From Cellulomonas sp. APG4 (GTDB lineage: Bacteria > Actinomycetota > Actinomycetes > Actinomycetales > Cellulomonadaceae), in NCBI RefSeq assembly GCF_009996735.1, contig NZ_JAACYI010000027.1, positions 1-45,046 of the forward strand: a stretch of 45,046 nt of DNA. Reading direction: 5' to 3'. The notes below the pieces were generated by a model. The model ran no database searches and was not told the origin of the DNA. It worked only from the letters and a program-made list of their open reading frames with translations. Within the stretch, counting starts at the first letter, position 1, and each line of letters opens with the position of its first letter. Of this stretch, positions 1 to 15,694 are shown piece by piece. The position numbers and the translations under genes are program-made.

Positions 1-124
1 CCGCCGGATCAGCGAGGGCAAGACCAAACGCGAAGCGATGCGCTGCCTCAAGCGCTACTTCGCCCGCCACGTGTTCAGGCTCCTGGAGAGCGCCCCGATG
101 CCCACTTGACGCCGATAGGAGCAT
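1..124 (+). mobile_element. IS110-family element, 3' end only
   Basis: This is the last part of an IS110-type element that enters from the left edge and ends within the orfB of the neighbouring IS3-type element. The transposase tail is readable to a stop at 107-109. IS3 orfB reads in its normal frame up to the codon for its catalytic glutamate (125-127) and is unrelated after that, so the junction lies at about 110-124. IS110 elements usually lack terminal inverted repeats and target duplications, and many insert at a preferred site in another repeat. That fits an end with no visible repeat. The exact boundary is inferred. Confidence 0.6.
2..109 (+). pseudogene. IS110-family transposase, C-terminal fragment
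   Basis: The first 35 codons visible in the window encode a basic C-terminal tail with the pattern EGKTKREAMRCLKRYFARHV, followed by a short end and a TGA stop. A GKT-EA-RCLKR-x-A-x-V-x-R motif is typical of the extreme C terminus of IS110 (DEDD, serine-containing) transposases, after the transposase_20 domain. The 5' part lies outside the window, so the gene may be intact in the genome and is only partial here. It reads towards the interrupted IS3 orfB. The family call rests on this short motif alone. Confidence 0.6.
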
Positions 125-811
125 CTCCATCATCGTGTTGTCCACGCTCGAGGCGACCCGCCCCATGGATCCGAGCAGGCCGGCCGAGCGCAGCCGGTGG
201 CCGAAGATCCACGACGTGTACTGGGCTCCGCGGTCTGCGTGGACGATCGCGCCGGGCCCCGGCCGGCGGGTCCAGATCGCCATCTGCAGCGCGTCGACGA
301 CGAGCTCGGAGCGCATGTGGTCCGCGATCGACCACCCGACGATCTTGCGGGTGAACACGTCCAGGACCGCGGCGCAGTAGACCTTCCCGGTGTTCGTCGG
401 GTGCTCGGTGATGTCGGTGCACCACAACCGGTCCGGACCGTCGGCGACGAACCGGCGCTGGACCAGGTCCTCGTGCGGGGCCGGCGCCGGGTGGTGACGA
501 GCGCGCTTGCGCCGGTGGCTGATGCCGCTGACCTGCGCGGCCCGCATCAGCCGCGCGACCCTCTTGCGGCCGCACGCGATGCCCATGCCCAGGCGCAGCT
601 CGGCATGGACCCGCGGGGCGCCGTAGGAGCACCGCGACATCTGGTGGACTGCCACGATCGTGGCCGTCAGCTCGGCGTCGGCGACCGCTCGGGCCGACGG
701 GGGTCGGACCTGCCAGTCGTAGTAGCCGGACCTGGAGACGTCGAGCACCCGGCAGGCCACCGCGACGGAGACACCGTCGTCGGCGAGTTCACGGACCAGC
801 CGGAACGTCAT
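119..811 (-). pseudogene. IS3-family transposase orfB, truncated after catalytic Glu
   Basis: Translation from the ATG at 811 begins MTFRLVRELADDGVSVAVAC and gives an HTH_21 region followed by an rve integrase core. The catalytic triad is readable: Asp in WCTDIT, Asp in HADRGAQYTS and Glu in MME, with 35 residues between the second Asp and the Glu, as in DD(35)E transposases. Directly after that Glu codon (125-127) the family sequence is lost and the frame runs into IS110 DNA, with no stop before the window edge. About 50 C-terminal residues are missing. The start overlaps the orfA stop as ATGA (808-811), the usual arrangement in this family, where a -1 frameshift can join both products. A longer open frame in the same region (75-632) is out of phase and is not a gene. 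Confidence 0.85.
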
Positions 812-1095
812 TTTGGGAGCACGTTCTCCCGCGCGAAGTAGGCGCTGGCGCGCTTGAGGATCTCGTTCTCCATCTCCAGCACCCGCGTCCGGCGCCGCAG
901 CTCGACCAGCTCCTTGCGCTCGTCGCTGGTCAGCCCCTCCCGGCGGCCGGTGTCGACGTCGTCCTGAGCCATCCACCGGCGCAGGCACGACTCGCTGATC
1001 CCCAGGTCGGACGCGACCTTCGCGACCGGGTGCTGACCGCTGCGGGCAAGATCCACCGCGCGACGCCGGAACTCCGGCGGCTTGGCTGCAGGCAC
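808..1095 (-). CDS. IS3-family transposase orfA (HTH protein)
   Basis: This small basic protein has an HTH_Tnp_1 domain (PEFRRRAVDLARSG, then a helix-turn-helix around VASDLGISESCLRRWM). A C-terminal leucine-zipper-like coiled coil (ELRRRTRVLEMENEILKRAS) is standard for OrfA of IS3 elements. OrfA binds the element ends, and the OrfA-OrfB frameshift fusion is the transposase. I chose the GTG at 1095 because GAGAGGAG lies just upstream (about 1101-1108) and the protein then begins like other OrfAs. An ATG at 1125 would add ten unconserved residues. The gene itself appears intact although its orfB partner is truncated. Confidence 0.85.
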   Translation of the reverse strand: MPAAKPPEFRRRAVDLARSGQHPVAKVASDLGISESCLRRWMAQDDVDTGRREGLTSDERKELVELRRRTRVLEMENEILKRASAYFARENVLPK

Positions 1096-1180
1096 AAGGA
1101 CTCCTCTCGGAGATGACATCGTCACCTCAGGACAGGTGTCCGGGGAAGCGGGTCAGGCTCCCCGAGGCTAGCGTCTGTCT

Positions 1181-1984
1181 GTGCGCTCCACACCGTTCGC
1201 CGTCGAACGCCGGCTGATTGACGGAATCCCGGCGATCTCAGTGCGCCCAGCGGCTGCATCGTCGAACCGCCTCGTCGTGTGGTTGCCGCCGTTGGGCGAG
1301 TCCGCTGAGGCCATGGTGCCTCATCTCCAGCGGTTGGCGGCCACTGGAGTAACTGCCCTGAGCATCGACCCCTGGCAGCACGGCATGCGGCAGGCTGCGC
1401 CTTCCGGTGCCCTTCGGGCAGCCGTGCTGGCCGACTTCCGACGGCGCATGTGGCCGATTCTCGGGCGGACGACTATCGATGCGCTCACCGTCGTGGACCA
1501 CTGGGGGCCCATGCTCGGGACAGACCCGACGTCCTACGACGTAGGTGGTATGTCGATGGGCGGCGACATCGCCCTTGCCCTCGCCGCCCTCGATGCGCGC
1601 ATCGGTCGAGTCTCCGTAGTCGCGGCAGGCCCGGACTGGGGCCGTCCCGGCATGCGCAGCGTGGATGGCAGCGACAAGACGATCGACCAGGGCCTCGAAG
1701 ATGCGGGCGCACACTGGTGGCGACAGCAGCTCGAGCCGGCAACACGCGCCGCTGCTTTTGCGCGCGACGTCCACGTGGACCTTGAGCTCGGCGGTGCGGA
1801 TACTCACGTGCCGCCGGACGCGGCGCTGGAACTTCGACGGCGCGTCGTCGCTCTCGACCCGAGCGCCGCAACACGATTCTCATGTCATGTGCATCCAGCG
1901 CTCGATCACCTCGCTGTCCTTGCTGATCAGGCAGTGATCGAACGCGCACTCTCGCGGCTCGGCGGTGCGAGTCCGTTGCAGTAG
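1181..1984 (+). CDS. Alpha/beta hydrolase, probable esterase
   Basis: This 267-residue protein has an alpha/beta-hydrolase fold. The nucleophile elbow reads G-x-S-x-G with Ser at about residue 125 (GGMSMGG), an acidic residue lies in the strand before LELGGADTHVPPDAA, and a histidine in HPALDHLAVL near the C terminus fits the triad. The N-terminal strand LVVWLPPLGES resembles dienelactone-hydrolase-like and prolyl-peptidase-like enzymes. The substrate is unknown. Beside glycosidases, removal of acyl groups from a glycan is a reasonable guess. There is no Shine-Dalgarno sequence before the GTG start. A TAGCGT hexamer at 1169-1174 sits at the right distance for a leaderless transcript beginning at the GTG. 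The gene converges on the ROK regulator with a 4-bp gap. The N terminus looks complete, so the adjacent IS has not cut it. Confidence 0.75.
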   Translation: MRSTPFAVERRLIDGIPAISVRPAAASSNRLVVWLPPLGESAEAMVPHLQRLAATGVTALSIDPWQHGMRQAAPSGALRAAVLADFRRRMWPILGRTTIDALTVVDHWGPMLGTDPTSYDVGGMSMGGDIALALAALDARIGRVSVVAAGPDWGRPGMRSVDGSDKTIDQGLEDAGAHWWRQQLEPATRAAAFARDVHVDLELGGADTHVPPDAALELRRRVVALDPSAATRFSCHVHPALDHLAVLADQAVIERALSRLGGASPLQ

Positions 1985-1988
1985 GGCC

Positions 1989-3206
1989 TCAGAGTGAGGA
2001 TGCCTGCTGAGATACCTGCTCCTTCAACACCATCTCCGCAGCCCCGACTGCGGCCGCATCTCGCATGGTCAGCGACTCACGCACGGCCACAGGATGCGCG
2101 TGCCGACCGAGGAACGCGGTGTCGAGGCGCCGCTGGATCGTCTCGATGTAGATCGAGACTGCACTGCCGAAGCCCGATCCTGCGAGGATGACGTGATCGA
2201 GATCGAGCAGGTTGGCGGCGCCTAGAACTGCCTGCGACATTGCGTCCGCGGACGCCTGGACCGCTGCCAGCGCGGCGGGGTCGTTGCGTAGCGCCAGGGC
2301 GGCCACGCGATTCATGGCGAGGCGACGGCCCGCTAACGCCGCGTAGGACTGCTCGACCGCGGCGGGGGCCGCCACAGCCTCGAGACAGCCTCTGCCTCCG
2401 CACCGGCACAGCTGCCCAGCCGGGTCTACGACGACATGGCCGATCTCCCCCGGCCGTCCGAGCCTGCCCCCCAGCGGCGCTCCGTCGAGGACGATGCCGC
2501 CGCCGATGCCGCGATCCATCTGGATAAGCAAGAGCCTTGAGTCCTTCCCGGCGGCACCACCCCAAGCCTCACCCGCCGCTGCGGCGGCGCCGTCGTTGTA
2601 CAGACGCACAGGCACACGTGCGGCGTCCTCCAGTGCGTTTCTCAACCGGAACCCGGCCCACTCAGGGAGGACCCTCGAGTCAAGGACAACATCCCGCGAG
2701 GCATCGAGTCCACCAGGCACCGCAACGCCAAAACCGACGATGCTCTCCGGCCGGAGCCCGAGGGATGAGAGCAGCTCGGCAGCAGCTTGGGCCACGCGCG
2801 TGGTCGACGCTGCAGGGCCGTCGACGCCATGGCGGAACCGCGAGCGGCCGACGACCGCACCCCCGAGACCCTCAACGACGATCGTTGCGGAGTCGGCCGT
2901 CAACTGCGCACCTAGTGCGTACCGGGACGCTGCGTTGATCTCAAGGAGAACTCGGCGCTTGCCTCCCGTGGACTCGCTGTGTCCCGACTCCGTGACCAGG
3001 CCTTCAGCGATGAGTCTGCGCGCGATGCTCGTGATCGCTGCGGGCGTCAGCCCGACGATGCCCGAAAGCTCGACTCTGCTGATCGGCGCCCGCGCCCGGA
3101 TCTCCTCAAGCACGACTTCGCGGTTGTTGACGCGTCGCCGCCGGGGGGCGCCGCCGGGCGTCGGAGCGCCCCGGGCGTCGCGTCGCTCAGGCTCCTCCGG
3201 TCGCAT
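1989..3206 (-). CDS. ROK-family transcriptional repressor
   Basis: The protein has an N-terminal winged helix-turn-helix (about residues 30-90, including ISRVELSGIVGLTPAAITSI) followed by a ROK domain. The ROK zinc site is clear as CRCGGRGCLEA, and the sugar-binding loop reads GEIGHVVVDP. Regulators of this kind (NagC, XylR, Mlc type) bind AT-rich operators and release them when a sugar or sugar phosphate binds. I chose the ATG at 3206 because GGGAG lies nine bases upstream. A GTG at 3212 would be only three bases from it. The gene is divergent from the GH2 mannosidase, and the shared promoter region holds a palindrome suited to this protein. It probably controls its own gene, the glycosidase operon and the distant ABC operon. 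The effector is unknown. Confidence 0.9.
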   Translation of the reverse strand: MRPEEPERRDARGAPTPGGAPRRRRVNNREVVLEEIRARAPISRVELSGIVGLTPAAITSIARRLIAEGLVTESGHSESTGGKRRVLLEINAASRYALGAQLTADSATIVVEGLGGAVVGRSRFRHGVDGPAASTTRVAQAAAELLSSLGLRPESIVGFGVAVPGGLDASRDVVLDSRVLPEWAGFRLRNALEDAARVPVRLYNDGAAAAAGEAWGGAAGKDSRLLLIQMDRGIGGGIVLDGAPLGGRLGRPGEIGHVVVDPAGQLCRCGGRGCLEAVAAPAAVEQSYAALAGRRLAMNRVAALALRNDPAALAAVQASADAMSQAVLGAANLLDLDHVILAGSGFGSAVSIYIETIQRRLDTAFLGRHAHPVAVRESLTMRDAAAVGAAEMVLKEQVSQQASSL

Positions 3207-3341
3207 CTCCACTTACTCCCTTTGCTTAATTTAGTCGCTTGACTAAGCGTGGTGTGGGGTCCAGTCTAGGTCTTGCAATGGCGCGACGACTCGCTGCCGT
3301 GGCTTGAGGTCGCAGGCTGCGGCCGGACAAGGAGATCTCGC
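3207..3341. promoter_or_regulatory. Divergent promoter region with ROK operator
   Basis: This region between the ROK gene and the mannosidase is AT-rich in the middle, in contrast to its surroundings. TTAGTCGCTTGACTAA (3231-3246) is a perfect six-base inverted repeat with a four-base spacer. The longer word CTTAATTTAGTC (3225-3236) recurs in altered form upstream of the ABC operon. TTGACT (3239-3244) overlaps the palindrome and could be the -35 of the rightward promoter, with a weak -10 (CAGTCT, 3262-3267) 17 bases on. A repressor bound at the palindrome would block this promoter. Assignment to the ROK protein rests on family behaviour and position, not on a binding test. Confidence 0.6.
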
Positions 3342-5873
3342 GTGCACCGACCGCTACATGATGGATGGCAGGTCCGCCTGGTCGCGGGATCGGCCCCAGA
3401 GGAGATCGCCGCGAGGCTGCGTGACGGCATCCCAGCACGGGTTCCGGGAGTGGTTCATCTTGACCTGCAGCGCGAGGGGCTGATCGGCGACCCCTTCGTC
3501 GACGATGCGGAGTCTGAGCTGCAGTGGATCGGTGAAGCCGACTGGGAGTACATCACCCATTTCGAATGGTCTCCGGATGCCAGCGACCGACACGACCTCA
3601 CCTGCGACGGACTCGACACCGTCGCGACGGTTCAGCTGAACGGCAGCACGGTCGCGCATACCGTCAACCAGCACCGGTCATATCGGTTCGACGTCACCAA
3701 CGTCTTGCGTCCGGGCTCGAATGAGCTCCGGGTCTACTTCGCTTCGCCGGTCCGCTTCGCCCGCGAGCAGGAGTCCGTGCTGGGTGAGCGCCCGCACTCC
3801 TACCACCACCCCTTCAACTGCATCCGCAAGGCGGCATACTCGTTTGGATGGGACTGGGGCCCGGACCTCGCCTCGGTGGGCATCTGGCGTTCGATTGGCA
3901 TCCACTCCTGGTCCCAGGCGCGCATCCGTAGCGTGCGTCCGATCGTGGACGTCATCGAAGGCGTGCCCTCGGTGGAGGTCCACGTCGATCTCGAGCTCTC
4001 CGATGAGAAGCAGACCGACGGCGCGCTCCGGCTGGACGTAGCAGTCGCCGGGCAACAGGGACACCTCGACGTCACGGGGCCCGGAGCACATGTGCTCCGC
4101 CTTGAGGCCCCCGACGCGCCCCTCTGGTGGCCTAGGGGCCACGGGCGCGCAGCGCTGCATGAGCTGACCGTGGGGGTTTCCAAGGCCTCTGGCCAGGGGC
4201 CGCTGGACAGCTGGTCCCGCTGCATCGGCTTTCGCACGATCGACATCGATCTGGCCCCGGACGCTCACGGAAGCGCATTCACGCTTCGGGTCAACGGCGA
4301 GGACGTGTATGTCCGAGGTGCCAACTGGATTCCCGATGACGTGTTCCTGCCGCGAATCCGGCGCGATGATCTTCACGCCAGCATCACGGATGCGACGGAC
4401 GCCGGCATCAACCTGCTACGGGTGTGGGGCGGCGGGATTTACGAGTCCGAGGACTTCTACGAGCTCTGCGACGAGGCCGGTGTGCTCGTCTGGCAGGACT
4501 TCCTCCTGGCGTGTGCGGCATACAGCGAGGACGCGGTGCTCTGGGACGAGTTCGCAGCCGAGGCGGAAGAGGCCGTCACGAGACTCACGGCCCACCCGAG
4601 CTTGGCCGTGTGGAACGGCTGTAACGAGAACCTCTGGGGATATGTCGACTGGGGCTGGCGCCCCGCCCTCGCTGGCCGGACATGGGGAGAGGGCTACTAC
4701 CGCCGGCTCTTCCCGGAGATCGTCGCCCGGCTCGCTCCGCGTACGCCGTACATTCCTGGCAGTCCGTGCTCGTTCAGCGACTACCTGCACCCCAATGATG
4801 ACAGCAATGGCATCATGCACATCTGGGACGTGTGGAACACGCACGACTACACGCGCTATGCCGAGTATCGGCCGCGGTTCGTCTCCGAGTTCGGGTTCCA
4901 GGGCCCGCCAGCGTGGTCAACGCTGCAGTACGCCGTTCACGACGAGCCGGCGGATCCATTCGGGCCGCACCTTCTCGTCCACCAGAAAGCCACCGACGGC
5001 AACGGAAAGCTCATGCGTGGGCTCGGTGATCACCTACCCACACCGGCGACCTTCGAGGACTGGCACTGGGCCACGCAGCTCAACCAGGCTCGCGCCGTGG
5101 CATTCGGCATCGAGCACTTCCGCTCCCTGTTCCCACTCAACCGGGGCTCCGTGGTGTGGCAGCTGAACGACTGCTGGCCATCAGTGTCCTGGGCGGCCGT
5201 CGACAGCCTCCGCCACCGCAAACCGCTCTGGTATGCACTGCGTCGTGTGTATGCCGACCGCCTCGTCACCGTCCAGACCGGCGAACACGGCCTCGAGGCG
5301 ATCGTGCACAACGACTCCCCGGACCGCGTCATGGCGACGGGGCGGCTGGTGCGCGAGCGGTTCGATGGCACGGCTCTTGCGGAGTACGAGTTCACCGTCG
5401 ACGTCGCGGCGCGGGACATTGTGCACCTCCCGATCCCTACGGCGATCGCTTTGCCTGACGATGCATCGCGGGAGGTCCTCGTCGTCGAGCTGGAGGGGCT
5501 CGCACCCGCCTATCACTGGTGGGCGGAGGACCCGAAACTTGCACTCCGCGGCGGGGACCTGGATGTCAGTGCGTCCGCGGTCGCCGAGGGCTACGAGGTT
5601 CGCGTGCAAGCACGAACTCTCACCAAGGACGTCACCCTGCTCGTCGACCGGGTTCACCCTGACGCCAGTGTCGACGATGCCCTCATCACGCTACGTGCCG
5701 GGGCGTCGCGAGTCTTCCGGGTTCAGGCACCGGCGGGGCTGCCGCCTGAAGCGTTTGCGGATCGCCTCGTGGTGCGCTCGGCCAACGACCTCGTTGCAAC
5801 CGCCGCACCGTGCCACGACGAAGGACAGAGCTCACCGGCCGTCTCCGCCATTCCCGCGGCGGCTCGGCCGTGA
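3342..5873 (+). CDS. Beta-mannosidase, glycoside hydrolase family 2
   Basis: This 843-residue GH2 enzyme should remove terminal beta-D-mannose from the non-reducing ends of oligosaccharides. Domains in order are a jelly-roll sugar-binding domain (about 1-170), an immunoglobulin-like domain (about 190-300), a TIM barrel (about 300-600) and C-terminal beta domains. IRKAAYSFGWDWGPD is the signature that separates beta-mannosidases from other GH2 members. The acid/base is Glu429 in WNGCNEN and the nucleophile is Glu516 in FVSEFGFQG. No signal peptide is visible, so the enzyme is probably cytoplasmic and acts on imported sugars. The GTG at 3342 follows AAGGAG at ideal spacing. An upstream in-frame ATG at 3273 lacks any ribosome site. 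The stop overlaps the next start as GTGA, so the two genes are translated together. Confidence 0.92.
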   Translation: MHRPLHDGWQVRLVAGSAPEEIAARLRDGIPARVPGVVHLDLQREGLIGDPFVDDAESELQWIGEADWEYITHFEWSPDASDRHDLTCDGLDTVATVQLNGSTVAHTVNQHRSYRFDVTNVLRPGSNELRVYFASPVRFAREQESVLGERPHSYHHPFNCIRKAAYSFGWDWGPDLASVGIWRSIGIHSWSQARIRSVRPIVDVIEGVPSVEVHVDLELSDEKQTDGALRLDVAVAGQQGHLDVTGPGAHVLRLEAPDAPLWWPRGHGRAALHELTVGVSKASGQGPLDSWSRCIGFRTIDIDLAPDAHGSAFTLRVNGEDVYVRGANWIPDDVFLPRIRRDDLHASITDATDAGINLLRVWGGGIYESEDFYELCDEAGVLVWQDFLLACAAYSEDAVLWDEFAAEAEEAVTRLTAHPSLAVWNGCNENLWGYVDWGWRPALAGRTWGEGYYRRLFPEIVARLAPRTPYIPGSPCSFSDYLHPNDDSNGIMHIWDVWNTHDYTRYAEYRPRFVSEFGFQGPPAWSTLQYAVHDEPADPFGPHLLVHQKATDGNGKLMRGLGDHLPTPATFEDWHWATQLNQARAVAFGIEHFRSLFPLNRGSVVWQLNDCWPSVSWAAVDSLRHRKPLWYALRRVYADRLVTVQTGEHGLEAIVHNDSPDRVMATGRLVRERFDGTALAEYEFTVDVAARDIVHLPIPTAIALPDDASREVLVVELEGLAPAYHWWAEDPKLALRGGDLDVSASAVAEGYEVRVQARTLTKDVTLLVDRVHPDASVDDALITLRAGASRVFRVQAPAGLPPEAFADRLVVRSANDLVATAAPCHDEGQSSPAVSAIPAAARP

Positions 5874-6721
5874 AGGCCCGTGGCGCCACTGTCGGCCTGG
5901 TGCTGCGGCGCCCCGTGCGCATGCTCGGCATCGAGGCGTTCTACACGGACTTCATGGCAGGGGTCGAGGACGTCCTCATGGAGGACGACCGCGAGCTCAT
6001 GCTCCAGGTGGTGCCGGACATGGAACGTGAGCTCGATGCATACGTGCGGTGGTCGGAAGGCGACCAGGTCGGCGCGGTGATCATTGTCGATGTACTGGTT
6101 GATAGCGATCCGCGGCTCGCCCTGGTCAACGACCTTGGCCTGGCGGCGCTCGTCGTCGCGCATCCGGATGACGCAGGCATGCACAGCTGCCTCGTCACCG
6201 ATGAAGCCGCGCTGGTGGACACCATCGTTGACGAGCTGCTCGGTCTCGGGCACCGAGTCCTCGCGCGCGTCTCCGGACCGCTGGCGCTCGCACACACGTC
6301 CAGACGGACGGCAGCTTTCGAGGCGGCCGTGAGAACACACGGTGGGCAGCCCATGGTCGTCGAAGCGGACTTCACGGCCAAGGAAGCACAGCGCGCAGTC
6401 ACTCGTCTGCTCGACGGCGACCAGCCACCGACTGCGATGGTCTTCGACAACGACGTCATGGCGGTGGCCGCCCTCGAGGTCATCAGCAGTCGTGGCCTGC
6501 GGGTGCCCGACGACGTCTCGCTGGTAGCCGGCGACGACTCAGTCGCCTGCCGTGTAGCGTCACCGCCGCTGTCGGCGATGAGCCGTGATGTCCACGAGCT
6601 GGGCATGCAAGCGGGACGCGCTGTCGTCGACGTTCTTTCGGGCGCTCCCGTGAGGACGTATGCCGCGCCTCGACCGACATTTGCGGCACGTGCGAGCACG
6701 GGACCCGTGCGGCTTGCCTGA
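5870..6721 (+). CDS. LacI-type sugar-binding protein without HTH domain
   Basis: The 283-residue protein begins directly at the periplasmic-binding-protein-like effector domain of LacI regulators (ATVGLVLRRPVRMLGIEAFY) and continues to the family's C-terminal signature (VPDDVSLVAGDDS, then SPPLSAMSRDVHELGMQAGR). The usual N-terminal helix-turn-helix and hinge helix, about 60 residues, are absent. The sequence upstream is the mannosidase coding region in another frame, so they have not been lost to a nearby frameshift. The GTG start overlaps the mannosidase stop (GTGA, 5870-5873). No signal peptide is present, so it should sit in the cytoplasm. It may sense a sugar and act on the ROK repressor or an enzyme, or buffer the ligand. 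Its function is not established. Confidence 0.8.
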   Translation: MKARGATVGLVLRRPVRMLGIEAFYTDFMAGVEDVLMEDDRELMLQVVPDMERELDAYVRWSEGDQVGAVIIVDVLVDSDPRLALVNDLGLAALVVAHPDDAGMHSCLVTDEAALVDTIVDELLGLGHRVLARVSGPLALAHTSRRTAAFEAAVRTHGGQPMVVEADFTAKEAQRAVTRLLDGDQPPTAMVFDNDVMAVAALEVISSRGLRVPDDVSLVAGDDSVACRVASPPLSAMSRDVHELGMQAGRAVVDVLSGAPVRTYAAPRPTFAARASTGPVRLA

Positions 6722-9299
6722 CCTCGTTCAGCTGCGGGTCGAGCACACCGTCGAGCCACTCGGTGTCGACGTCCCTCAGCCACGTCTGTCGTGGGTTGTT
6801 CGCTCTGCGCTACGGGGTGATGTTCAACGCTCCGCGCGGGTCCGGCTGCGGCGGGGCGGGGTGGTGGTGTGGGACAGCGGCGCGCTGACGAATCCAGACG
6901 TGCGGCACGTCGATGTCGACGGCGCGCTGCTCCAGCCCGACGTTCGCTACGAGTGGAGCGTCGACGTGCGCACGGCTGAGGGCTCGGCGTCGGCATCGTC
7001 GTGGTTCCACCGCGGGTTGACCCATGATGATCAGTGGCACGGCGCGCAGTGGATCGCCGGATGGTCGGACGGAGCGCTCCTCGGCAGTCAACGCCCAGCC
7101 CCGGTGCTCCTGGGACGTCTGAACCTCACCCACGCACCGGAGGACGACGCGGCACGCCTCTACGTCGCGGCTGGCGGCCACACAGCGGTACGGATCAACG
7201 GCAAGGACGCCGACCTTGGTGCCGTGGTCCCAGGCTTCACCGACTATGACGTCCGCGTCCAGTACGTCGCTGCCCACGTCGGCCGGCTGCTGCGCAGGGG
7301 CGACAACATCGTCAGCCTCGAGCTGGGGCGCGGGTTCTATGGACCGCTGGCCCGGAGCACGTGGGACTGGCACATCGCGCCGTGGCACGGGGAACCGACG
7401 GCTCGATGCATGCTGGTCGTCGACACGACACACGGTCCTACCCGCCTTGTCACTGACGACAGCTGGGAGGTCGTCGATGGCGGGACGCTACGCGACGATC
7501 CGTTTGCCGGCGAAGACTACGACGCTGCAGCGGATCGCACGCTTTGGCCGGAAAGCAGCGAGCGGCCGGAGCGACGGCGACCGGCCGTCGTCGTGGCAGG
7601 CCCGCGTGGACGCCTGGAGCACCAGCGGCAGCAACCGCAACGGGTCATCGACCGCATTCCACCTGACCGTATCGAGCGCACCGCTCCAGACGTCCTGCTC
7701 GCACACTATCCGCGCCTCGTCTCGGGGTGGGTTGAGGTGGCGCCACCTGGTGACCAGCCTTCCCGACTGAGGCTCGACTACGGTGAAAGGCTCACAGCAG
7801 CGAGGACGCCCGACAACCTCGACACACACGGCTACTTCGATGGTCGGTTCCAGGTGGACGAGGTTGCGTTCCCGGCGGTGGCCGCTGACAACGTGCGAGA
7901 CTGGCATCCGAGGTTCGGTTACCGGGGCTTCAGCTGGGTTCAGGTGACGGGGTGGCCGGAGGAGCGGGGTGCGGGTCTGCCCGCTCCAGAGAAGCTCAGC
8001 GCCCTAGTCGTCCACAACGACGTGGCATCCCGGGCAGAGTTCACCTGCTCCGAGCCATCACTCGTCGAGCTGCACGCACTTGTGCGCCGGACAATCCTCG
8101 TGAATCTCCACGACCTACCGACCGATACGCCGACGTACGAGAAGAACGGGTGGACCGGCGACGGCATGCTGGGCGCCGAGATGATGCTCCGGAACTTCGA
8201 CACCCAGCAGCTGCTGGCGAAGTGGCTCGATGACATCGCCGACACGACGCGCCACACCGGCCTGCCCGCTGTCATCGCGCCGCACGGCGGCTGGCGCGCG
8301 GACTGGACGCCGACGCCGACGTGGAACGCCGCGTTCCCGCTGCTTGCATGGTGGCTGCGGGTGTACGGCGGTGACGACCGCCCGATGTTGCGCCACTACG
8401 ACGCGTTGCTCCGGCACGCGCGGCTGGAGCATGACCGCACAGATGGTGGCATTGCGACGACGACGCTCGGTGACTGGGTCAGCCCCGAGGCGGACCCCGG
8501 CGGCGGCAACCCCCCGGAGGATCTGCGTGTCGCGGCGACAGCGTACGTGTACCGCATCCTGAGGACGGTCATGCGGATCGCCCTCGTCCTTGGCCGGCGA
8601 GACGATGCCCGAGAGCTCTCAGGGCGCGCCCGCGACGTCCGTGACGCGTTCAGGCGCACCTTCGTGAGTGCTACGGGCGCGGTGCGCGGCGCCGACGAAG
8701 AGACCTTCCGCCAGACGCACCAGGTTCTCGCACTCAGGTTCGGTCTCGTACCCCGCAGCCTCCAGGCACGCACCGCCGCCGGCCTCGCTGCGGACGTACG
8801 CGCCCGGGGCGACCACCTCAACACCGGCGCGCTCGGAACGAAGTACCTCCTGCCGGTCCTGAGTCGGCACGGCTACGCGCGCGAGGCTCTGTCCGTCGCG
8901 GTCAATCCCACGTATCCCGGGTGGGGCCACTGGCTGCAGCATGGTGCGACGACGCTCTGGGAGCACTGGGCGCCTGAGTCACGATCACGTGGACACTACT
9001 TCCTGGGTACGGTCGACGACTGGCTCTTTGAGGACGTCGCCGGCATCCGCCCCGCCTCGCCGGGATGGCGCACCTTCGACGTGGCGCCCACCCTCACGCA
9101 CCTTCTCGACCATGCCGCCGCTCGGCTGCAGACACCACTCGGTGATGCGGCAGTGTCCTGGTATCACGAGGACCGCCGGGTGGTCCTCGAGGTGGAGGTG
9201 CCAGTAGGGGCCGTCGCTCGGCTCCGAGTGCCCGGAGCCGATGGACGCAGGCTCGGCCCGGGACGCCACCGACTGGAGCTGGCAGGACCGTCCGGATGA
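6714..9299 (+). CDS. Alpha-L-rhamnosidase, glycoside hydrolase family 78
   Basis: This enzyme of about 861 residues should cleave terminal alpha-L-rhamnose. The N terminus has the family pattern LRVEHTVEPLGVDVPQPRLSW. It is followed by beta-sandwich domains (Bac_rhamnosid_N type), a catalytic (alpha/alpha)6 barrel with DTPTYEKNGWTGDG supplying the general acid region, GDWVSPEADPGGG, and the probable base glutamate in TTLWEHW, then a C-terminal beta domain. It has no signal peptide, so it is probably cytoplasmic. The start is uncertain. TTG at 6714 (overlap of eight bases) fits the conserved N terminus best; GTG at 6690 and ATG at 6660 are alternatives with longer overlaps. It is the last gene of the mannosidase operon and is followed by a strong terminator. 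Confidence 0.9.
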   Translation: MPDLVQLRVEHTVEPLGVDVPQPRLSWVVRSALRGDVQRSARVRLRRGGVVVWDSGALTNPDVRHVDVDGALLQPDVRYEWSVDVRTAEGSASASSWFHRGLTHDDQWHGAQWIAGWSDGALLGSQRPAPVLLGRLNLTHAPEDDAARLYVAAGGHTAVRINGKDADLGAVVPGFTDYDVRVQYVAAHVGRLLRRGDNIVSLELGRGFYGPLARSTWDWHIAPWHGEPTARCMLVVDTTHGPTRLVTDDSWEVVDGGTLRDDPFAGEDYDAAADRTLWPESSERPERRRPAVVVAGPRGRLEHQRQQPQRVIDRIPPDRIERTAPDVLLAHYPRLVSGWVEVAPPGDQPSRLRLDYGERLTAARTPDNLDTHGYFDGRFQVDEVAFPAVAADNVRDWHPRFGYRGFSWVQVTGWPEERGAGLPAPEKLSALVVHNDVASRAEFTCSEPSLVELHALVRRTILVNLHDLPTDTPTYEKNGWTGDGMLGAEMMLRNFDTQQLLAKWLDDIADTTRHTGLPAVIAPHGGWRADWTPTPTWNAAFPLLAWWLRVYGGDDRPMLRHYDALLRHARLEHDRTDGGIATTTLGDWVSPEADPGGGNPPEDLRVAATAYVYRILRTVMRIALVLGRRDDARELSGRARDVRDAFRRTFVSATGAVRGADEETFRQTHQVLALRFGLVPRSLQARTAAGLAADVRARGDHLNTGALGTKYLLPVLSRHGYAREALSVAVNPTYPGWGHWLQHGATTLWEHWAPESRSRGHYFLGTVDDWLFEDVAGIRPASPGWRTFDVAPTLTHLLDHAAARLQTPLGDAAVSWYHEDRRVVLEVEVPVGAVARLRVPGADGRRLGPGRHRLELAGPSG

Positions 9300-9304
9300 C
9301 GATC

Positions 9305-9338
9305 GCACCGGCATTCCGCCGTAGCGGAACGCCGGTGC
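9305..9338. terminator. Bidirectional hairpin terminator
   Basis: A 15-base stem, GCACCGGCATTCCGC with GCGGAACGCCGGTGC around a CGTA loop, lies between the converging rhamnosidase and binding-protein genes. One position (9313/9330) is an A-C mismatch in the rightward transcript but a G-U pair in the leftward one, so the hairpin is slightly better for the ABC operon. There is no strong U-tract, which is common in high-GC actinobacteria. Confidence 0.8.
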
Positions 9339-9359
9339 GTTGACGCCGGTGGGATCGTG

Positions 9360-10655
9360 TCAGCTGGCGATTGCGTCGTCGAGGCGCTGGAGCACCTCCG
9401 CCGGGGTGACGTCCCGGTTGAAGAGCTCCTGCATCGCGATCAGGTACTCCTCCTTGACCTGGGTGTTGGGCCACGTCTGGTCGGGGTACACCGCGGCGCG
9501 TCCTCTCTCCAGGGCGTCGATCAGCGGCTGGTTGATCTCGTCGGCCTCATAGTCCGGCGCGGGGAGTGCCGGCGAGCTGTCCGACGCCGTGGCGAACAGG
9601 GCCTGCCCCTCGGGCGATGCGACAAAGGCGAGGAACGCCTTCGCTGCCTCGGGGTTCTCCGCCTTCGCGTTCATAGCGAAGTTGATACCGGGAGCGACGG
9701 GGACGTAGGTGTCGTCCGGGTTCTCCGTTGCCGGGAACGGCGCCAGGGAGAAGGTGGTTCCGTCGGCTGCGTACTGGCGGGCCGCTGAGACCGCCTGGGA
9801 GACGTGCACTGCTCCGAGGGCCGCCCCCTCGCCCACCATCGTCATCTGCGCGTCGTACGCCGTGCCGTTCGCTCCCTCGTTGAAGCAACCGGCGTCGTCC
9901 ATCTCAACGACCTTCTCCAGAGCCTCCATCCACCCGGAATCCGTGAAGGACGCCGTGCCCTCGGTCTGGTCTTCCGTGAAGGACGGATTGGGGCCGTAGA
10001 CCAGGGTGCCCGTGAGCGCGTACGGCAGCAGCTGCGCCGTCCACGCGTCCTTCGTTCCCAGCGCATAGGCCACCTTGCCGTGTTCCTGAGCAGTTGCGCA
10101 GAGCTGGAGGACCTCCGACCACGTGGTGGGGGCGGTGGCACCAACCTCGTCCATGGCAGCATCGTTGTAGATGGCGCCGATGCCGCCGATCGTGGCGGGC
10201 AGTGAGTACAGGTCACCTTCGTGTCCTGCGAGGGCGACGAGGTTCTCCGGGATGTCGCTTGCCCACGGTTCATCGCTGAGGTCGGCCACCAGGCCGTCCG
10301 CCGCGACGGCCCCGATCGCCATCGCATCGCCTGCACCTGGCCACACCTTGAAGATGTCGGGTGCTGTCCCGCCGGAGAGCTGGGTGCGGAGCTGCTGGAT
10401 GTATGCGGCGTCCTGCTCGATGAACACGGGCTCGACCGTGTACTCCGGGTGCGCCTCCTCGAAGGCAGCGAGGAGCGGCTCAGCGGCTACCTGCTGGCCG
10501 CTCGCGAATGTCAGCACAGAGCTGGCGTCACCAGTGCTGGTGCCGCTGCCGGTGGGGTCTGCTGCCTCCGTCGAACAGGCACTGAGTGCCAGCGTGAGGA
10601 TTCCTAGTACGGCGCATGCACCGGCGGCGCCTGTGGGCTTAGAAGTACGGTTCAC
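9360..10655 (-). CDS. Sugar ABC transporter substrate-binding lipoprotein
   Basis: This 431-residue family 1 extracellular solute-binding protein belongs to the CUT1 class for oligosaccharides. A lipoprotein signal peptide ends in LTLALSACS with Cys as the lipidated residue. A Thr/Ser/Gly linker follows, then the binding domain (LTFASGQQVAAEPLLAAFEEA onward, and a typical KAFLAFVASPEGQALF segment near the end). It should capture the glycan on the cell surface and pass it to the two permeases upstream. The GTG start follows GGGAG at six bases. Here the binding protein is the last gene of its operon, 77 bases after the second permease, whereas in most CUT1 operons it comes first. Substrate cannot be read from the sequence. 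The neighbouring enzymes suggest a mannosyl or rhamnosyl oligosaccharide. Confidence 0.92.
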   Translation of the reverse strand: MNRTSKPTGAAGACAVLGILTLALSACSTEAADPTGSGTSTGDASSVLTFASGQQVAAEPLLAAFEEAHPEYTVEPVFIEQDAAYIQQLRTQLSGGTAPDIFKVWPGAGDAMAIGAVAADGLVADLSDEPWASDIPENLVALAGHEGDLYSLPATIGGIGAIYNDAAMDEVGATAPTTWSEVLQLCATAQEHGKVAYALGTKDAWTAQLLPYALTGTLVYGPNPSFTEDQTEGTASFTDSGWMEALEKVVEMDDAGCFNEGANGTAYDAQMTMVGEGAALGAVHVSQAVSAARQYAADGTTFSLAPFPATENPDDTYVPVAPGINFAMNAKAENPEAAKAFLAFVASPEGQALFATASDSSPALPAPDYEADEINQPLIDALERGRAAVYPDQTWPNTQVKEEYLIAMQELFNRDVTPAEVLQRLDDAIAS

Positions 10656-10732
10656 TGCTGTCTCCCTATGAGTGTCGCGTCATTGCAAACTGGGAACACC
10701 AGCCCCTGTGGGCACGGTGGTCGTGCGGCCTC

Positions 10733-11554
10733 TCAGCCCTTCAAGCCCCCCGCGAACCCGCGGATGATGTACTTCTGTAGGAGGAAGTACAGGATCAGCA
10801 CCGGCAGAATCGTGATCAGCAGCGCGGCGAAGACGAGAGGCCATTGGGCCACGTACTGACCGACGAAGTTGTAGATGGCGACCGGAGCGGTCGTCTGGCC
10901 ACTGCCGGAGAGGTACAGCAGAGGCGTGAAGAACTCGTTCCACACGGACACGGAGTTGAGGACGACGATGGTGCCGGTCACGGCGCGCAGGAGTGGGAAC
11001 ACCACGCTGACGAAAGTCCGCACCGGTCCGCAGCCGTCGAGCACAGCGGCTTCCTCATACTCCACCGGCAGCTCCCGCAGGAAGGTGGTGTAGAGAAAGA
11101 TCGAGAACGGCAGCTGACCGCCGATGTTGATGAGGACGACGGCCCACAGCGTTCCGAGCAGGCCGGCGTCTCGCATGGTCACGTAGAGCGGAAGCAGTCC
11201 GAGCTGGGATGGGATCAGGAGTCCGGCAAGGAAGAAGAAGAACGTCCCGCGGGACCAGCGGCGCGTGCTGCGCGCAAGGGGGTATGACGCCATCGCAGCG
11301 ATGACGACCACCCCGACGACACTGAGCACCGCGACGACGGCGCTGTTGACGAGCGCCCCGCCTAGTGCGCCCTGTGACCATGCCTGGACGAAGTTGTCGG
11401 TGCTCAGGGGCCAGGAGATGGTGAGAGCGTCGGCCGGTCGACCCTGCGGGGTGAACGCGACGTTGGTGAGTGCCAGGAGTGGCACGAGGAACACGAGGGC
11501 GACGAGGATGACGCCCGCCTCACGGAGGCCGGTCCGAACGGTGTAGCGATGCAT
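10733..11554 (-). CDS. Sugar ABC transporter permease (MalG/CUT1 type)
   Basis: The 273-residue inner-membrane protein has six predicted transmembrane segments, the first at VILVALVFLVPLLALTNVAF. It carries the cytoplasmic EAA loop (EYEEAAVLDGCGPVRTFVSVV) that docks on the ATPase, and the MalG-type C terminus ending QKYIIRGFAGGLKG. The ATG overlaps the preceding permease stop as TGATG, so translation is coupled. A longer open frame reaching 12064 is an artefact of the high-GC frame. No ATPase gene is in this cluster. CUT1 systems of actinobacteria commonly share one ATPase (MsiK) encoded elsewhere. Confidence 0.92.
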   Translation of the reverse strand: MHRYTVRTGLREAGVILVALVFLVPLLALTNVAFTPQGRPADALTISWPLSTDNFVQAWSQGALGGALVNSAVVAVLSVVGVVVIAAMASYPLARSTRRWSRGTFFFFLAGLLIPSQLGLLPLYVTMRDAGLLGTLWAVVLINIGGQLPFSIFLYTTFLRELPVEYEEAAVLDGCGPVRTFVSVVFPLLRAVTGTIVVLNSVSVWNEFFTPLLYLSGSGQTTAPVAIYNFVGQYVAQWPLVFAALLITILPVLILYFLLQKYIIRGFAGGLKG

Positions 11555-12561
11555 CAGGTCACCTTCCGGGCGGTCATCCGGTACTGGATCGAGGCGATGA
11601 CCGCGATCAGGATCGTCATGACCACGGCCAGAGCGATCGACACGGGATACTCGCCTGAGCTGAAGGCCCCCTTGTAGATGGTGGTGGAGATCGTCTCGGT
11701 AGCGATGCCCGGTCCTCCCCCGGTCATGGCCATGACCTGGTCGAACTGCTTCAGACCGCCGATCAGCGACAACATGACGTTGATGACGATCGAGCCGTTG
11801 ATGAGCGGGAGTGTCACGCTTACGAACCGGCGCCATGGACCCGCGCCGTCCATCGCGGCTGCCTCGTTGATCTCCTCCGGTATTGCTTGGAGGCCGGCTA
11901 GGAAGATGACCATGGAATACCCGGTGAACTGCCAGATGATCGCGGCACACACCGCCCACAGCGCCGTCGATGGGTTCCCGAGCCAGTCCTGCCGCCACGA
12001 CTCCAGCCCGACTGTGCTCAGGAGTGTGTTCAGGGGTCCGGTAGGAGCCAGGAGGAAGCTCCATATGTACCCCGACACGAGTGGCGTGAGAACGACGGGC
12101 GCGAAGAAGAGCACCCGGAGCACGGAGCGCGACTTCAGCGCGCCGTTGAGGGCGACGGCGAGGCCCAGGCCCAGTGCGTTCTGCACCACGGTGACGACGA
12201 AGGCGAGAAGAACGGTGTTCTTGAGTGCGGACAGGGCACGACGGTCATCGAAGACCTCGGCGAAGTTCTCGAAGCCGACGAGCTGCCAGTCGCCGGACAA
12301 GCCGTTCCAGTCGGTGAAGGCGTAGAAGCCACCGCGCAGGCTGGGCCAGACCACCACGAACACGTACATCGCGACGGCGGGAACGAGGAACCACCACGGC
12401 GCGCGCAGGGGGGACCGCCGGCGCTGGCTTCCGGGTGCGCGGCCATCAGTGGGGGACTCGTCAGTCCTGTGCACCGTTTCGATCTCGCTGCGGCGCCGCG
12501 GCACGGTGGCGATCGTGCGCCCGAGATCTGGGTCCCCGCGCTGTTGCCTCTGGTCTGTCAC
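11554..12561 (-). CDS. Sugar ABC transporter permease (MalF/CUT1 type)
   Basis: This 335-residue permease starts with a hydrophilic tail of about 55 residues, followed by six predicted membrane segments (first WWFLVPAVAMYVFVVVWPSL). The EAA loop reads INEAAAMDGAGPWRRFVSV. It pairs with the following permease to form the channel. I chose the GTG at 12561 because GAGGA lies four bases upstream. An in-frame ATG at 12594 lacks a ribosome site. It is the first gene of the leftward operon. Its promoter overlaps the proposed ROK operator at 12630-12650. Confidence 0.9.
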   Translation of the reverse strand: MTDQRQQRGDPDLGRTIATVPRRRSEIETVHRTDESPTDGRAPGSQRRRSPLRAPWWFLVPAVAMYVFVVVWPSLRGGFYAFTDWNGLSGDWQLVGFENFAEVFDDRRALSALKNTVLLAFVVTVVQNALGLGLAVALNGALKSRSVLRVLFFAPVVLTPLVSGYIWSFLLAPTGPLNTLLSTVGLESWRQDWLGNPSTALWAVCAAIIWQFTGYSMVIFLAGLQAIPEEINEAAAMDGAGPWRRFVSVTLPLINGSIVINVMLSLIGGLKQFDQVMAMTGGGPGIATETISTTIYKGAFSSGEYPVSIALAVVMTILIAVIASIQYRMTARKVT

Positions 12562-12612
12562 GACATCCTCGTCCCTGTGTGACCTGCATCCCACTCCGTA
12601 CCGCTGGACGGG

Positions 12613-12654
12613 ACGCTAGTCGACGCGCGGACTAAATACAACTAATTAAGTAAG
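12613..12654 (-). promoter_or_regulatory. ABC operon promoter overlapping ROK-like operator
   Basis: On the minus strand, TTGTAT (12641-12636) and TAGCGT (12618-12613) form a -35/-10 pair with a 17-base spacer, upstream of the first permease. The -35 lies in an AT-rich block, ACTAAATACAACTAATTAAG (12631-12650). The eight bases GACTAAAT (12630-12637) occur in the opposite orientation at the mannosidase/ROK promoter (3229-3236), and a TTAAG end is also shared. This suggests that the same ROK repressor binds both places. The same block lies upstream of the rightward nucleoside-hydrolase-like gene. Confidence 0.6.
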
Positions 12655-12687
12655 ATCGATCCGTTGTCCACTCACCGAGGAGTCCAC

Positions 12688-13578
12688 GTGCAGTCCACCC
12701 CGCTCCGCAGTCGCCTTCTGCTCTCCACAGACGCGAAGAACGAGGCGGACGACCAGTTCGCCATCGCGCACGCCTTGCTGTCGCCGACCCTTGACCTGCG
12801 CGGCGTCCTCCCGGCACACTTCGGCACGCGAGTGCCGGACTCCCGCGCGCAGTCGCGCGCTGAGGTGGACCTTCTGCTCGCGCTCGCGGGCCGAACCGAC
12901 GTCACCGTCGCGGACGGAGCGGACGGCCCACTTGGGGACCGCACCACGGCACGTCCGAGCGAAGCGTCGCAGCTCATCGTCAGCGAAGCGCTGGCTGAGG
13001 ACGAGGCGCCGCTGTTCGTCGTCGCTCTCGGCCCGCTCACGGACGTCGCTTCCGCCATCTTGAGCGAGCCGGGCGTCGCCGCGTCAGGAGCCACCGTCGT
13101 CTGGATCGGCGGTCCGCCGTACGACGACGTGGAGCCGGTCTACTGGCCGGAGTACAACCTGTCGAACGACATCGCCGCAGCGAACGTCGTCTTCAGCTCC
13201 GGGCTGGAGATCTGGCAGGTGCCGATGGACGTCTACACCCGCGTGGGCGTGAGCTACAGCGAGCTGGACCACCGCGTACGTCCCCACGGCCGACTGGGCG
13301 GGTACCTGGTGCGACAGCTGCACGAGTGGAACGCGCAGCACATGTCACGCGCGGTCGATCATCGCTCGTTGGGAGACCAACCCGGTATCGGCTTGGTGCT
13401 GAACCCGTTCGGGGCCGTCTGGCGGCGCCTCCCTGCGCCCTCGTTCAACGCTGATGGCTCAGCGACTCAAGGAGAGCCGTCGCGACGTGTGCGTGTGTGC
13501 AGAGAGCTCGACACTCGCTGGCTACTCGAGGACTTCTTCCACAAGATCGCCGACCACGCGCGAGACTCCGTCGGGTGA
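12688..13578 (+). CDS. Nucleoside-hydrolase-like N-glycosidase
   Basis: The 296-residue protein belongs to the inosine/uridine-preferring nucleoside hydrolase superfamily. These enzymes cut N-ribosidic bonds using a calcium ion held by an N-terminal aspartate cluster. Here that cluster reads STDAKNEADDQFAIAHAL: the first and the paired Asp are kept, but the middle Asp of the usual DTDxGxDD is Lys. The core strand VVWIGG and the ligand-binding EYNLSNDIAAANVVF are present. This variant subgroup is usually labelled only nucleoside hydrolase, and its substrate is uncertain. The GTG at 12688 follows GAGGAG at five bases; the TTG at 12664 does not. No signal peptide is seen. It is divergent from the sugar ABC operon and shares its AT-rich operator region, so it probably acts on a product of the same imported compound. 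Confidence 0.75.
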   Translation: MQSTPLRSRLLLSTDAKNEADDQFAIAHALLSPTLDLRGVLPAHFGTRVPDSRAQSRAEVDLLLALAGRTDVTVADGADGPLGDRTTARPSEASQLIVSEALAEDEAPLFVVALGPLTDVASAILSEPGVAASGATVVWIGGPPYDDVEPVYWPEYNLSNDIAAANVVFSSGLEIWQVPMDVYTRVGVSYSELDHRVRPHGRLGGYLVRQLHEWNAQHMSRAVDHRSLGDQPGIGLVLNPFGAVWRRLPAPSFNADGSATQGEPSRRVRVCRELDTRWLLEDFFHKIADHARDSVG

Positions 13579-13671: not shown

Positions 13672-14391
13672 TCAGGCCGCCCCGACGACGACGCGGGGAG
13701 TCCCGGCCCAGCGAGCCGGGTCGGTGACGTTGCGCCCGTCGGACAGCAACCGGATCCCAGGCAGGTCCACCGGCGACAGCTCGGCGTACTCGGGGTGGTC
13801 GGCCTGGACTACGGCGAGGTCGACCGGCTCCCCCAGGTGGTACGGCGTCCACCCGAAGCGGGCGAGCTCGTCATCCGCGTACATGGGGTCGTGCACGAGC
13901 ACCTGCGCGCCGCGCGCCTCGAGCGCCGCGACGGTCGCGAAGACGCCCGAGAAGGCCGTCTCCTTGACCTTGCCCCGGTACGACGCGCCGAGGACCACGG
14001 CCCGCAGGCCGGTGAGGTCCCCGAGCAGCTCGGCGGCGCGCTCCACGACGTGCTCGGGCATCGCCGCGTTGTGCTGGCGGGCCGTGCGGACGATCGAGGC
14101 GTCGGGGTCGGTGGACAGGTACAGGCGCGGGTAGACCGGGATGCAGTGCCCGCCCACCGCGATGCCCGGCCGGTGGATGTGTGAGTAGGGCTGGGAGTTG
14201 CAGGCCTCGATGACCTTGTACACGTCGATGCCCGCCTTCTCGGCGAAGAGCCCGAACTGGTTCGCGAGCCCGATGTTGACGTCGCGGTACGTCGTCTCGG
14301 CGAGCTTGGCCATCTCCGCGGCCTCCGCGCTGCCCATGTCCCACACGCCGTTGGGGCGGGCGAGGTCGGGACGCTCGTCGAAGGTCAGGAC
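13672..14391 (-). pseudogene. Nucleotide-sugar dehydrogenase, 5'-truncated
   Basis: This is the C-terminal half of a UDP-glucose/GDP-mannose dehydrogenase family protein, closest in pattern to UDP-N-acetylmannosamine (WecC-like) dehydrogenases. The central domain (SAEAAEMAKLAETTYRDVNI) and the active-site cysteine in GGHCIPVYP are present, followed by the UDP-binding C-terminal domain (GASYRGKVKETAFSG). The N-terminal NAD-binding Rossmann domain, about 190 residues, is missing. Coding begins at about 14391 (VLTFDERPDL), exactly where the IS3 element starts. In-frame internal starts exist (for example 14346), but a protein from them could not bind NAD. The loss is best explained by an IS-linked deletion. 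GC content returns to the high level of the rest of the chromosome here. Confidence 0.85.
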
Positions 14392-14422
14392 TGAGTCGCC
14401 CTGGCTTTGATGGAGGCTCGGG

Positions 14423-15325
14423 CTATGGGATTTCGACCAGGGTCTGGCCGCTCCCGTGGGTAGCGTAGAACGTGGTCTCGAACTCGGCGGGTGGGACGTC
14501 GCCGAGGTAGCCGTGCAGGCGCGCGGTGTTGTGCCAGTGGACCCAGCCGAGGGTCGCGAGCTCGACGTCCTCGACGCTCTTCCAGGGACCGGTGCGGGCC
14601 GGGCCGCGGATCAGCTCGGCCTTGTAGTAGCCGTTGACGGTCTCGGCCAGGGCGTTGTCATACGAATCGGCCACGGTCCCGATCGAGGGGCTCGCGCCGA
14701 TCTCGGCGAGGCGTTCGCCGTAGCGCAGTGACGTGAACTGACTGCCGGCATCGCTGTGACACCTCAAACCCTCGATCCTCGTGCCGCGGGACCAGCGGGC
14801 CATCTCGATGGCGTCCAGGACCATCTCGGTGCGCATGTGCGCTGCCACGCGCCAGCCGACGATCATCCGAGAGTAGGCGTCGGTGATGAAGCAGACGTAG
14901 GCCACCCCGGCCCACGTCGGGACATACGTCAGGTCGGTGACCCACAGCTGGTTCGGGGCGGTGGCTGTGAAGTCGCGTTCGACCAGGTCCGGGTGCCGGG
15001 CCGCGCCCGGGTCGGCCTTGGTGGTGCGGACCCGCTTGGTGCGCCGGGCACCCTCGATGCCCTCGGCCCGCATCAGCCGGGCGACCTGATCACGACCCAC
15101 GTCCCAGCCGGCCCGGACCGCGGCCTTCCAGAGCTTGCGCGCCCCGTAGACGCGGTAGTTCTCCTCCCACAACTGGCGCAGCACCGGGCGCAGGACGCCG
15201 TCGCGGACCTCCCGCGCCGAGGGCCGGCGGGCCTTGGCCGCGTAGTACGTGCTCGGCGCCACCTGCAGCACGCTGCAGATGGGCTCGACGCCGAGCTCGT
15301 CACGGTTCGCGTCGATGAACTCCAC
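14423..15325 (-). CDS. IS3-family transposase orfB
   Basis: The 300-residue protein has an HTH_21 segment followed by a full rve integrase core. The catalytic residues are Asp in VTDLTYVP, Asp in CHSDAGSQFTS and Glu in NALAETVNGYYKAEL, and the C-terminal WVHWHNTARLHGYLG motif typical of IS3 OrfB is intact. The GTG start shares one base with the orfA stop (TAGTG at 15325), so translation by coupling or frameshift is possible. No disruption is visible, so this copy could still be active. Confidence 0.9.
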   Translation of the reverse strand: MEFIDANRDELGVEPICSVLQVAPSTYYAAKARRPSAREVRDGVLRPVLRQLWEENYRVYGARKLWKAAVRAGWDVGRDQVARLMRAEGIEGARRTKRVRTTKADPGAARHPDLVERDFTATAPNQLWVTDLTYVPTWAGVAYVCFITDAYSRMIVGWRVAAHMRTEMVLDAIEMARWSRGTRIEGLRCHSDAGSQFTSLRYGERLAEIGASPSIGTVADSYDNALAETVNGYYKAELIRGPARTGPWKSVEDVELATLGWVHWHNTARLHGYLGDVPPAEFETTFYATHGSGQTLVEIP

Positions 15326-15669: not shown

Positions 15670-15694
15670 GACTCCATCCTCGTTTCCAAGGTCA

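Follow-up and report, generated by a model that had tools for sequence, protein, structure and literature searches.

The stretch analysed here (the window, 45,046 nucleotides) is an entire contig (C19) of the 3.74-Mb genome of Cellulomonas sp. APG4. Between positions 1181 and 13578 it carries an island of nine genes (Table 1), which is tentatively read below as one transferred regulon for a rhamnose-bearing glycoside; its nucleoside-hydrolase-fold (NH) protein belongs to a subfamily designated NH-A. The original prediction had named a CUT1 importer, a beta-mannosidase, an alpha-L-rhamnosidase, a nucleoside-hydrolase-like enzyme, an esterase-like hydrolase and a ROK repressor. Domain matches and, for the esterase-like hydrolase, sequence motifs and a relative confirmed all of these genes and their locations, but a ninth gene, encoding a LacI-family protein without a helix-turn-helix (HTH), had been overlooked.

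Table 1. Features of the island and of its borders in the window.
Feature	Position	Strand	Evidence or remark
IS3-type OrfA (808-1125) and OrfB (2-988), OrfB apparently broken near 118-130	1..1125	-	Pfam rve, HTH_21, HTH_Tnp_1; contig end
Alpha/beta-hydrolase (esterase-like)	1181..1984	+	Motifs GMSMGG (serine), DTH, DH; relative L303
ROK-family regulator with winged HTH	1989..3212	-	PF00480 E 3.3e-44, PF13412 E 9.2e-6
Operator-like site CTTAATTTAGTC-N4-GACTAA	3224..3246		Between divergent ROK and GH2
GH2 beta-mannosidase-like exo-glycosidase (predicted)	3273..5873	+	Top PDB match 5n6u beta-mannosidase, E 1.5e-134
LacI-family ligand-binding core without HTH	5870..6721	+	GTG start overlapping GH2 stop
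GH78 alpha-L-rhamnosidase (predicted; open reading frame counted from first ATG)	6660..9299	+	PF17389 E 3.9e-83; PDB 6i60, 3w5m, 6gsz
Inverted repeat, terminator-like	9308..9335		Between convergent GH78 and SBP genes
CUT1 solute-binding lipoprotein (SBP)	9360..10655	-	SBP_bac_1; relatives near GH78
CUT1 permease, MalG-like	10733..11563	-	BPD_transp_1
CUT1 permease, MalF/UgpA-like	11554..12594	-	BPD_transp_1
Second operator-like site (GACTAAAT ... AATTAAG)	12617..12650		Between divergent CUT1 and NH
NH-fold protein, TDAKNEADDQ subfamily (NH-A), predicted furanosidase	12664..13578	+	PF01156, model, fold matches, neighbourhoods
Nucleotide-sugar dehydrogenase, 5'-truncated	13672..14346	-	Without about the first 200 residues; host-like GC3 0.969
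IS3-family element, terminal repeats TGAGTCGCCCTGG	14392..15723	-	Flanking trinucleotides gac/ctc
ECF (extracytoplasmic function) sigma factor, 5'-truncated	15724..16149	+	Sigma70_r4_2; match to PF07638 begins at profile position 83

Consistent with the original prediction, the island was poorer in GC (0.672 at 1181-13578) than the right flank (0.737 at 15724-45046), of which the lowest 12.4-kb stretch, scanned in steps of 200, had a GC of 0.720. At the codon level, mean GC at third positions (GC3) was 0.806 in the nine island genes compared to 0.926 in 19 right-flank open reading frames chosen by a codon-score script, and the two ranges did not overlap (Mann-Whitney p = 2.9e-5). Transposase genes, which we take from their domain set to be of the IS3 family, lie on both sides, again as predicted. 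Island genes were rare in relatives: GH78 matches (E 1e-120) occurred in 5 and alpha/beta-hydrolase matches (E 1e-8) in 1 of the 395 other genomes of the order, NH proteins of more than 50% identity were found in 2 of the 220 other genomes of the family, and among 58 relatives the GH2 match with the highest score was 53% identical. The complete gene set was present in none of the 80 NH, five GH78 and 15 importer loci examined. Gain by transfer, the origin proposed initially, was supported.

The regulator has both a ROK domain and a winged HTH, and the two divergent promoters of the island share a motif. CTTAATT and ATTTAGTC are common to the 60-bp gap between the ROK and GH2 genes and the 69-bp gap between the CUT1 and NH genes; each occurs twice in the 45-kb window, in these promoters only, and TTTAGTC-N(3-10)-GACTA is likewise confined to the two gaps, while TTAGTC alone was at chance frequency (3 observed, 2.1 expected). 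When the gaps were dinucleotide-shuffled, any inverted half-site was shared in 10 of 3000 trials; in 3000 separate shuffles, the gaps had an 8-mer in common in 186 cases and both features in common in 2. The nearest cluster, from Microbacterium oleivorans P10 (L074), matches the 18-base site best (14/18) at position 7463 of its 20.9 kb, upstream of a GH2-NH gene pair; the highest scores in 67 further NH loci longer than 15 kb were 11 to 13. At a further locus (L062), CTTACTTTGTTC precedes both the importer and GH2. ROK operators can have arms of this type. The shared motif suggests one regulon, with the ROK protein as the presumed ligand of the motif, and the claim that the genes form one functional set was upheld in the sense of one regulated set.

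The importer comprises a solute-binding protein and two permeases of the MalF/MalG type. At 11 of 15 importer loci (15 of the 32 matches listed besides the window's own), a GH78 match (E 1e-10) lay in the same 20 kb as the closest binding-protein relatives; GH78 was absent at E 1e-15 from 20 control loci with canonical NH genes. The closest importer locus (L274) has permeases that are 67-69% identical and a weak GH106-like match below the cut-off. Two loci (L283 and L285) contain an aldolase-dehydrogenase fusion, presumably for rhamnose catabolism, and L285 also contains an FGGY kinase. Judged by their neighbours, the CUT1 relatives point to rhamnosides. The GH78 protein itself has the domain set of its family (five Pfam domains) and the conserved acids: the Glu residues of EKNGW and LWEHW, which we assume to be catalytic, align with DERMGW and LWERW in 6i60. 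Among its five closest loci, CUT1 permeases were present in two (L275 and L279) and an SBP match in none. The nearest GH78 relative (L275:2326-6391) adjoins two sulfatases and a trehalase/mannosylglycerate-hydrolase-like gene, a neighbourhood that may serve a sulfated rhamnose glycan there; given these neighbours, a natural glycan can be proposed only tentatively for the window GH78.

Homology of the GH2 protein to the beta-mannosidase 5n6u extends over residues 54-715. Its SEFG motif, which we take to hold the nucleophile, aligns with 5n6u, and its NGCNE stretch, presumably that of the acid/base, faces NNCN in the 5n6u chain, which is possibly mutant; a beta-mannosidase-like exo-glycosidase is predicted. 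The LacI core that follows, starting with GTG at 5870, is translationally coupled to GH2 and lacks an N-terminal HTH (PF00356). Of the 29 relatives that scored best within the family (L219-L247), 22 have GH2 immediately before the gene, at 9-149 bp as measured between match ends; the other seven had no GH2 match within the 1.5-kb flank. No HTH was detected in any of the 29 by a regular expression, and a Pfam scan of 33 proteins (three full-length LacI controls, the window protein and the 29 relatives) matched PF00356 in three, the first control by name and, presumably, the other two controls. Because most relatives follow GH2 and none has an HTH, the view of this gene as a decayed regulator was rejected. 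The pairing of an HTH-less LacI protein with a beta-mannosidase is a recurrent one in the family, and we know of no description of it, although no literature search was made. The alpha/beta-hydrolase gave no Pfam or NCBIfam match at 0.001 and its best PDB match had an E of 0.18; one relative (L303, 39% identical) matches the DLH family. A likeness to the AXE1 esterase of L074 was considered and rejected, the two proteins being dissimilar.

Since the GH2-LacI core pair recurs in this way, and since L062, the only such locus surveyed over 20 kb for this purpose, has the pair but neither GH78 nor NH, the gene set resembles a mosaic assembled from known modules. On one alternative reading, transfer placed modules for mannosides, rhamnosides and NH under a common regulator although they act on several different glycosides, which would fit the recurrence of each module alone elsewhere. 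This was judged to be quite improbable: the motif is common to both divergent promoters, and NH adjoins GH2 in L074 too, with a similar promoter site.

The predicted model of the NH protein was confident (predicted local distance difference test, pLDDT, 92.8) and has the NH fold; all 50 PDB fold matches shown were nucleoside or riboside hydrolases. The DxDxxxDD motif of canonical IU nucleoside hydrolases, which we take to be the calcium and base motif, is absent, with D-A-K-N-E-A-D-D in its place. The canonical second Asp position is occupied by Lys in 79 and by Ala in 2 of 81 NH-A rows. Residues D23, N26, E27, D29, D30 and D238 were invariant in 32 aligned sequences, which argues against decay of NH-A.

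Apiose is a branched plant sugar, present in glycosides as well as in cell walls, and pathways for D-apiose were reportedly described by Carter et al. in 2018. A scan of 84,980 species matched 441 relatives, of which the best 80 were kept as loci; many are from Kribbella and Nonomuraea, and in some the contig stops close to NH. Two gene sets, each through its representatives, were searched against these loci at E 1e-15: a non-oxidative set from L120 (an AP_endonuc_2 isomerase that is ApsI-like, a split transketolase and an FGGY kinase) and an oxidative set from L077 (an ApnL-like protein, a PF16896 protein, an AP_endonuc_2 protein, DhaK, RpiB/DerI and TPI). The best PDB match of the L120 isomerase was 3ktc (E 1.6e-136), which we take to be D-apiose isomerase. 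ApsI with both transketolase halves was present at 25 and ApnL with ApnO or OiaC at 10 of the 80 loci; a full D-apiose-type set of either kind was thus found at 35 (33 of 78 without the query source loci L077 and L120), and at least one marker at 46 when loci with a lone ApsI, ApnL or ApnO, or with just the two transketolase halves, were counted too. In contrast, apiose markers were found in none of the 20 canonical PF01156 control loci (20 of 31 listed canonical matches, E up to 1.1e-39, taken from 10 of the same genomes). Fisher tests, which ignore shared ancestry, gave p = 1e-4 for the full set and p = 1e-6 for any marker. By label, the full set occurred in 15 and any marker in 19 of 37 genera or bins. 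A CUT1-type permease match lay within 51 of the 80 loci, and the NH-A gene overlaps GH78 (L115 and L148) and GH2 (L074) by a few bases. Across 221 genomes of the family, ApsI-like proteins were found in 16, NH proteins in 26 and both in 13 (p = 1.4e-11, shared ancestry again ignored), most of these NH proteins belonging to the sister group NH-B. One paper mentions an apsI-bearing cluster in Pectobacterium and growth on D-apiose (PMC13001218). Five Microbacterium loci (L075, L077, L079, L082 and L085) have ApnL-, ApnO- and OiaC-like, DhaK, RpiB and TPI genes near NH-A, and two of them (L075 and L079) have GH78 matches too.

In the tree, the window NH grouped with that of L074 (98/64), both on long branches, and the pair was nested in a 13-row starred clade that includes five full and one partial apiose loci; the ancestor of this clade therefore plausibly handled apiose. 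NH-B lies on one side of a branch and has the motif DND[FY][SA]GDPDG in all 11 of its tree rows. The 36-42% NH matches of the family, where inspected, belong to NH-B, whose loci (L054-L071) had ApsI and both transketolase halves in 6 of 14 cases and a GH78 match in 3 of 14; the NH as a plain nucleosidase was rejected. On a related proposal, NH-A would be a nucleosidase, either ordinary or inactive, and the cluster would serve to scavenge glycosylated nucleosides or would contain a passenger gene; the fold matches and the Lys in place of the canonical second Asp agree with this. The invariant residues are contrary to decay, however, and the 20 canonical NH loci lack such neighbours, so that this proposal was considered very unlikely.

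The original prediction held that the island serves a single bacterial glycan with both beta-D-mannose and alpha-L-rhamnose, as in some O-antigens and exopolysaccharides; the NH would then be an unrelated accessory. Both GH2 and GH78 do belong to this island, possibly under common regulation, and no apiose markers lie close to the two NH genes linked to GH2, those of the window and of L074. However, NH-A neighbourhoods indicate apiose, GH78-CUT1 and GH2-HTH-less LacI are found separately elsewhere, and not one of the 80 NH loci had both GH2 and GH78. That substrate class gained no support, with the CUT1 relatives directed to rhamnosides and the NH family to the plant sugar D-apiose, and the single bacterial glycan was deemed unlikely.

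The reading preferred, with reservations, is that the island is one ROK-controlled regulon, acquired by transfer, whose CUT1 proteins would import a small rhamnose-bearing glycoside with the aid of a shared ATPase assumed to be encoded elsewhere. In the cytosol, alpha-L-rhamnose would be taken off by GH78 and a terminal beta-hexoside by GH2, with beta-D-mannose as the likeliest sugar, while the alpha/beta-hydrolase would take off an acyl group or open a lactone; the HTH-less LacI core would be a sugar-binding partner. NH-A, a predicted furanosidase derived from nucleoside hydrolases, is probably an apiosidase, most likely releasing D-apiose. The earlier suggestion that a small oligosaccharide is imported and stripped inside the cell stands as a reading, the cytosolic location being presumed. 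A wider proposal is more tentative: the D[AVT][KA]NEADDQ proteins could be a new family of apiofuranosidases that act in the cytosol, descend from nucleoside hydrolases with the loss of one canonical metal/base Asp and feed D-apiose to both known routes in many Actinomycetota and some Pseudomonadota, the island using one on a rhamnosylated, apiosylated plant glycoside. Novelty would rest less on the sugar mixture than on NH-A as a family and on the LacI partner without an HTH. If this view of NH is true, a large family under the nucleoside hydrolase domain (441 relatives in one genome scan) is misleadingly named, the missing first step of apiose use is supplied to many bacteria, and the island becomes a ready system for tests, its importer, regulator and three exo-enzymes being defined.

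Several observations weigh against the apiose regulon. The motif tests were made after the motif had been noticed, and the strict TTAGT...ACTAA pattern was absent from all six promoter stretches of other loci. No marker among ApsI, paired transketolase, ApnL and ApnO was present at 34 of the 80 NH-A loci, and two names in the oxidative set are weak: the L077 ApnL-like protein matched NF049900 (E 1.3e-59) with 202 bits against a cut-off of 750, and the DerI match had 147 bits against 240. Neither an apiose isomerase nor an apionate lactonase was found at the locus or in its own genome, which yielded neither an ApsI-like match (E 1e-60) nor an ApnL match (0.001), the latter search having no positive control genome; the search did not extend to further genes of apiose or rhamnose catabolism. 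The two other NH-A genomes of the family (G106 and G210) also lacked an ApsI-like match at E 1e-60, and apiose released there would therefore have no known isomerase route. Given the long branches, the mannosidase-linked NH pair may have changed substrate. The literature searched gave no link between a nucleoside hydrolase and apiose, nor between one and a rhamnosidase as a system.

At the left border, the contig stops within insertion sequence (IS) remains; bases 1-118 presumably represent the C-terminal end of an IS110-type transposase, which they resemble, abutting the broken IS3 OrfB. At the right border, the IS3 element sits between the dehydrogenase and sigma factor genes, each without its 5' end, the pattern that an IS-mediated deletion would leave. 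Since its flanking trinucleotides differ, no target duplication is seen; about 540 bases of the element recur on contig C4 at 88% identity. The dehydrogenase has a host-like GC3, and the foreign segment therefore seems to end near 13578 and not at the IS. A comparison with 18 congeners showed no empty site: one relative of the gene at 16146-17228 was found (in G002), and the window sigma fragment had no match there (1e-6).

Compared with known systems, NH-A differs from canonical nucleoside hydrolases (RihA, YeiK and plant NRH) by its low identity (15-24%) and by DAKNEADDQ in place of DxDxxxDD, but it shares their fold, with TM-scores of 0.71-0.78 by query length. D-apiose-type catabolic loci of Kribbella, Nonomuraea and Microbacterium have NH-A proteins that are 49-59% identical and often a CUT1 importer; unlike the window, they contain their own apiose-isomerase-like, kinase and split transketolase genes or an apionate-type set. 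The CUT1-GH78 loci (L281-L291) resemble the island in the binding protein (38-44% identical), the permeases (46-60%) and the presence of GH78, but that GH78 is just 26-32% identical, there is no GH2 or NH match, and likely rhamnose catabolism genes are present in two of those scanned. In L062, GH78 and NH are absent from 19.9 kb, whereas a module of ROK (39%), CUT1 permeases (31-32%), GH2 (51%) and HTH-less LacI core (45%) is conserved. The cluster of M. oleivorans P10 has no GH78 match, its AXE1 esterase is dissimilar to that of the window, and a dipeptide-type ATP-binding cassette importer (read by eye) adjoins its GH2; it nevertheless combines a ROK protein (38%), a GH2 (59%) coupled to an NH-A (59-60%), an importer, a carbohydrate esterase and a similar promoter site.

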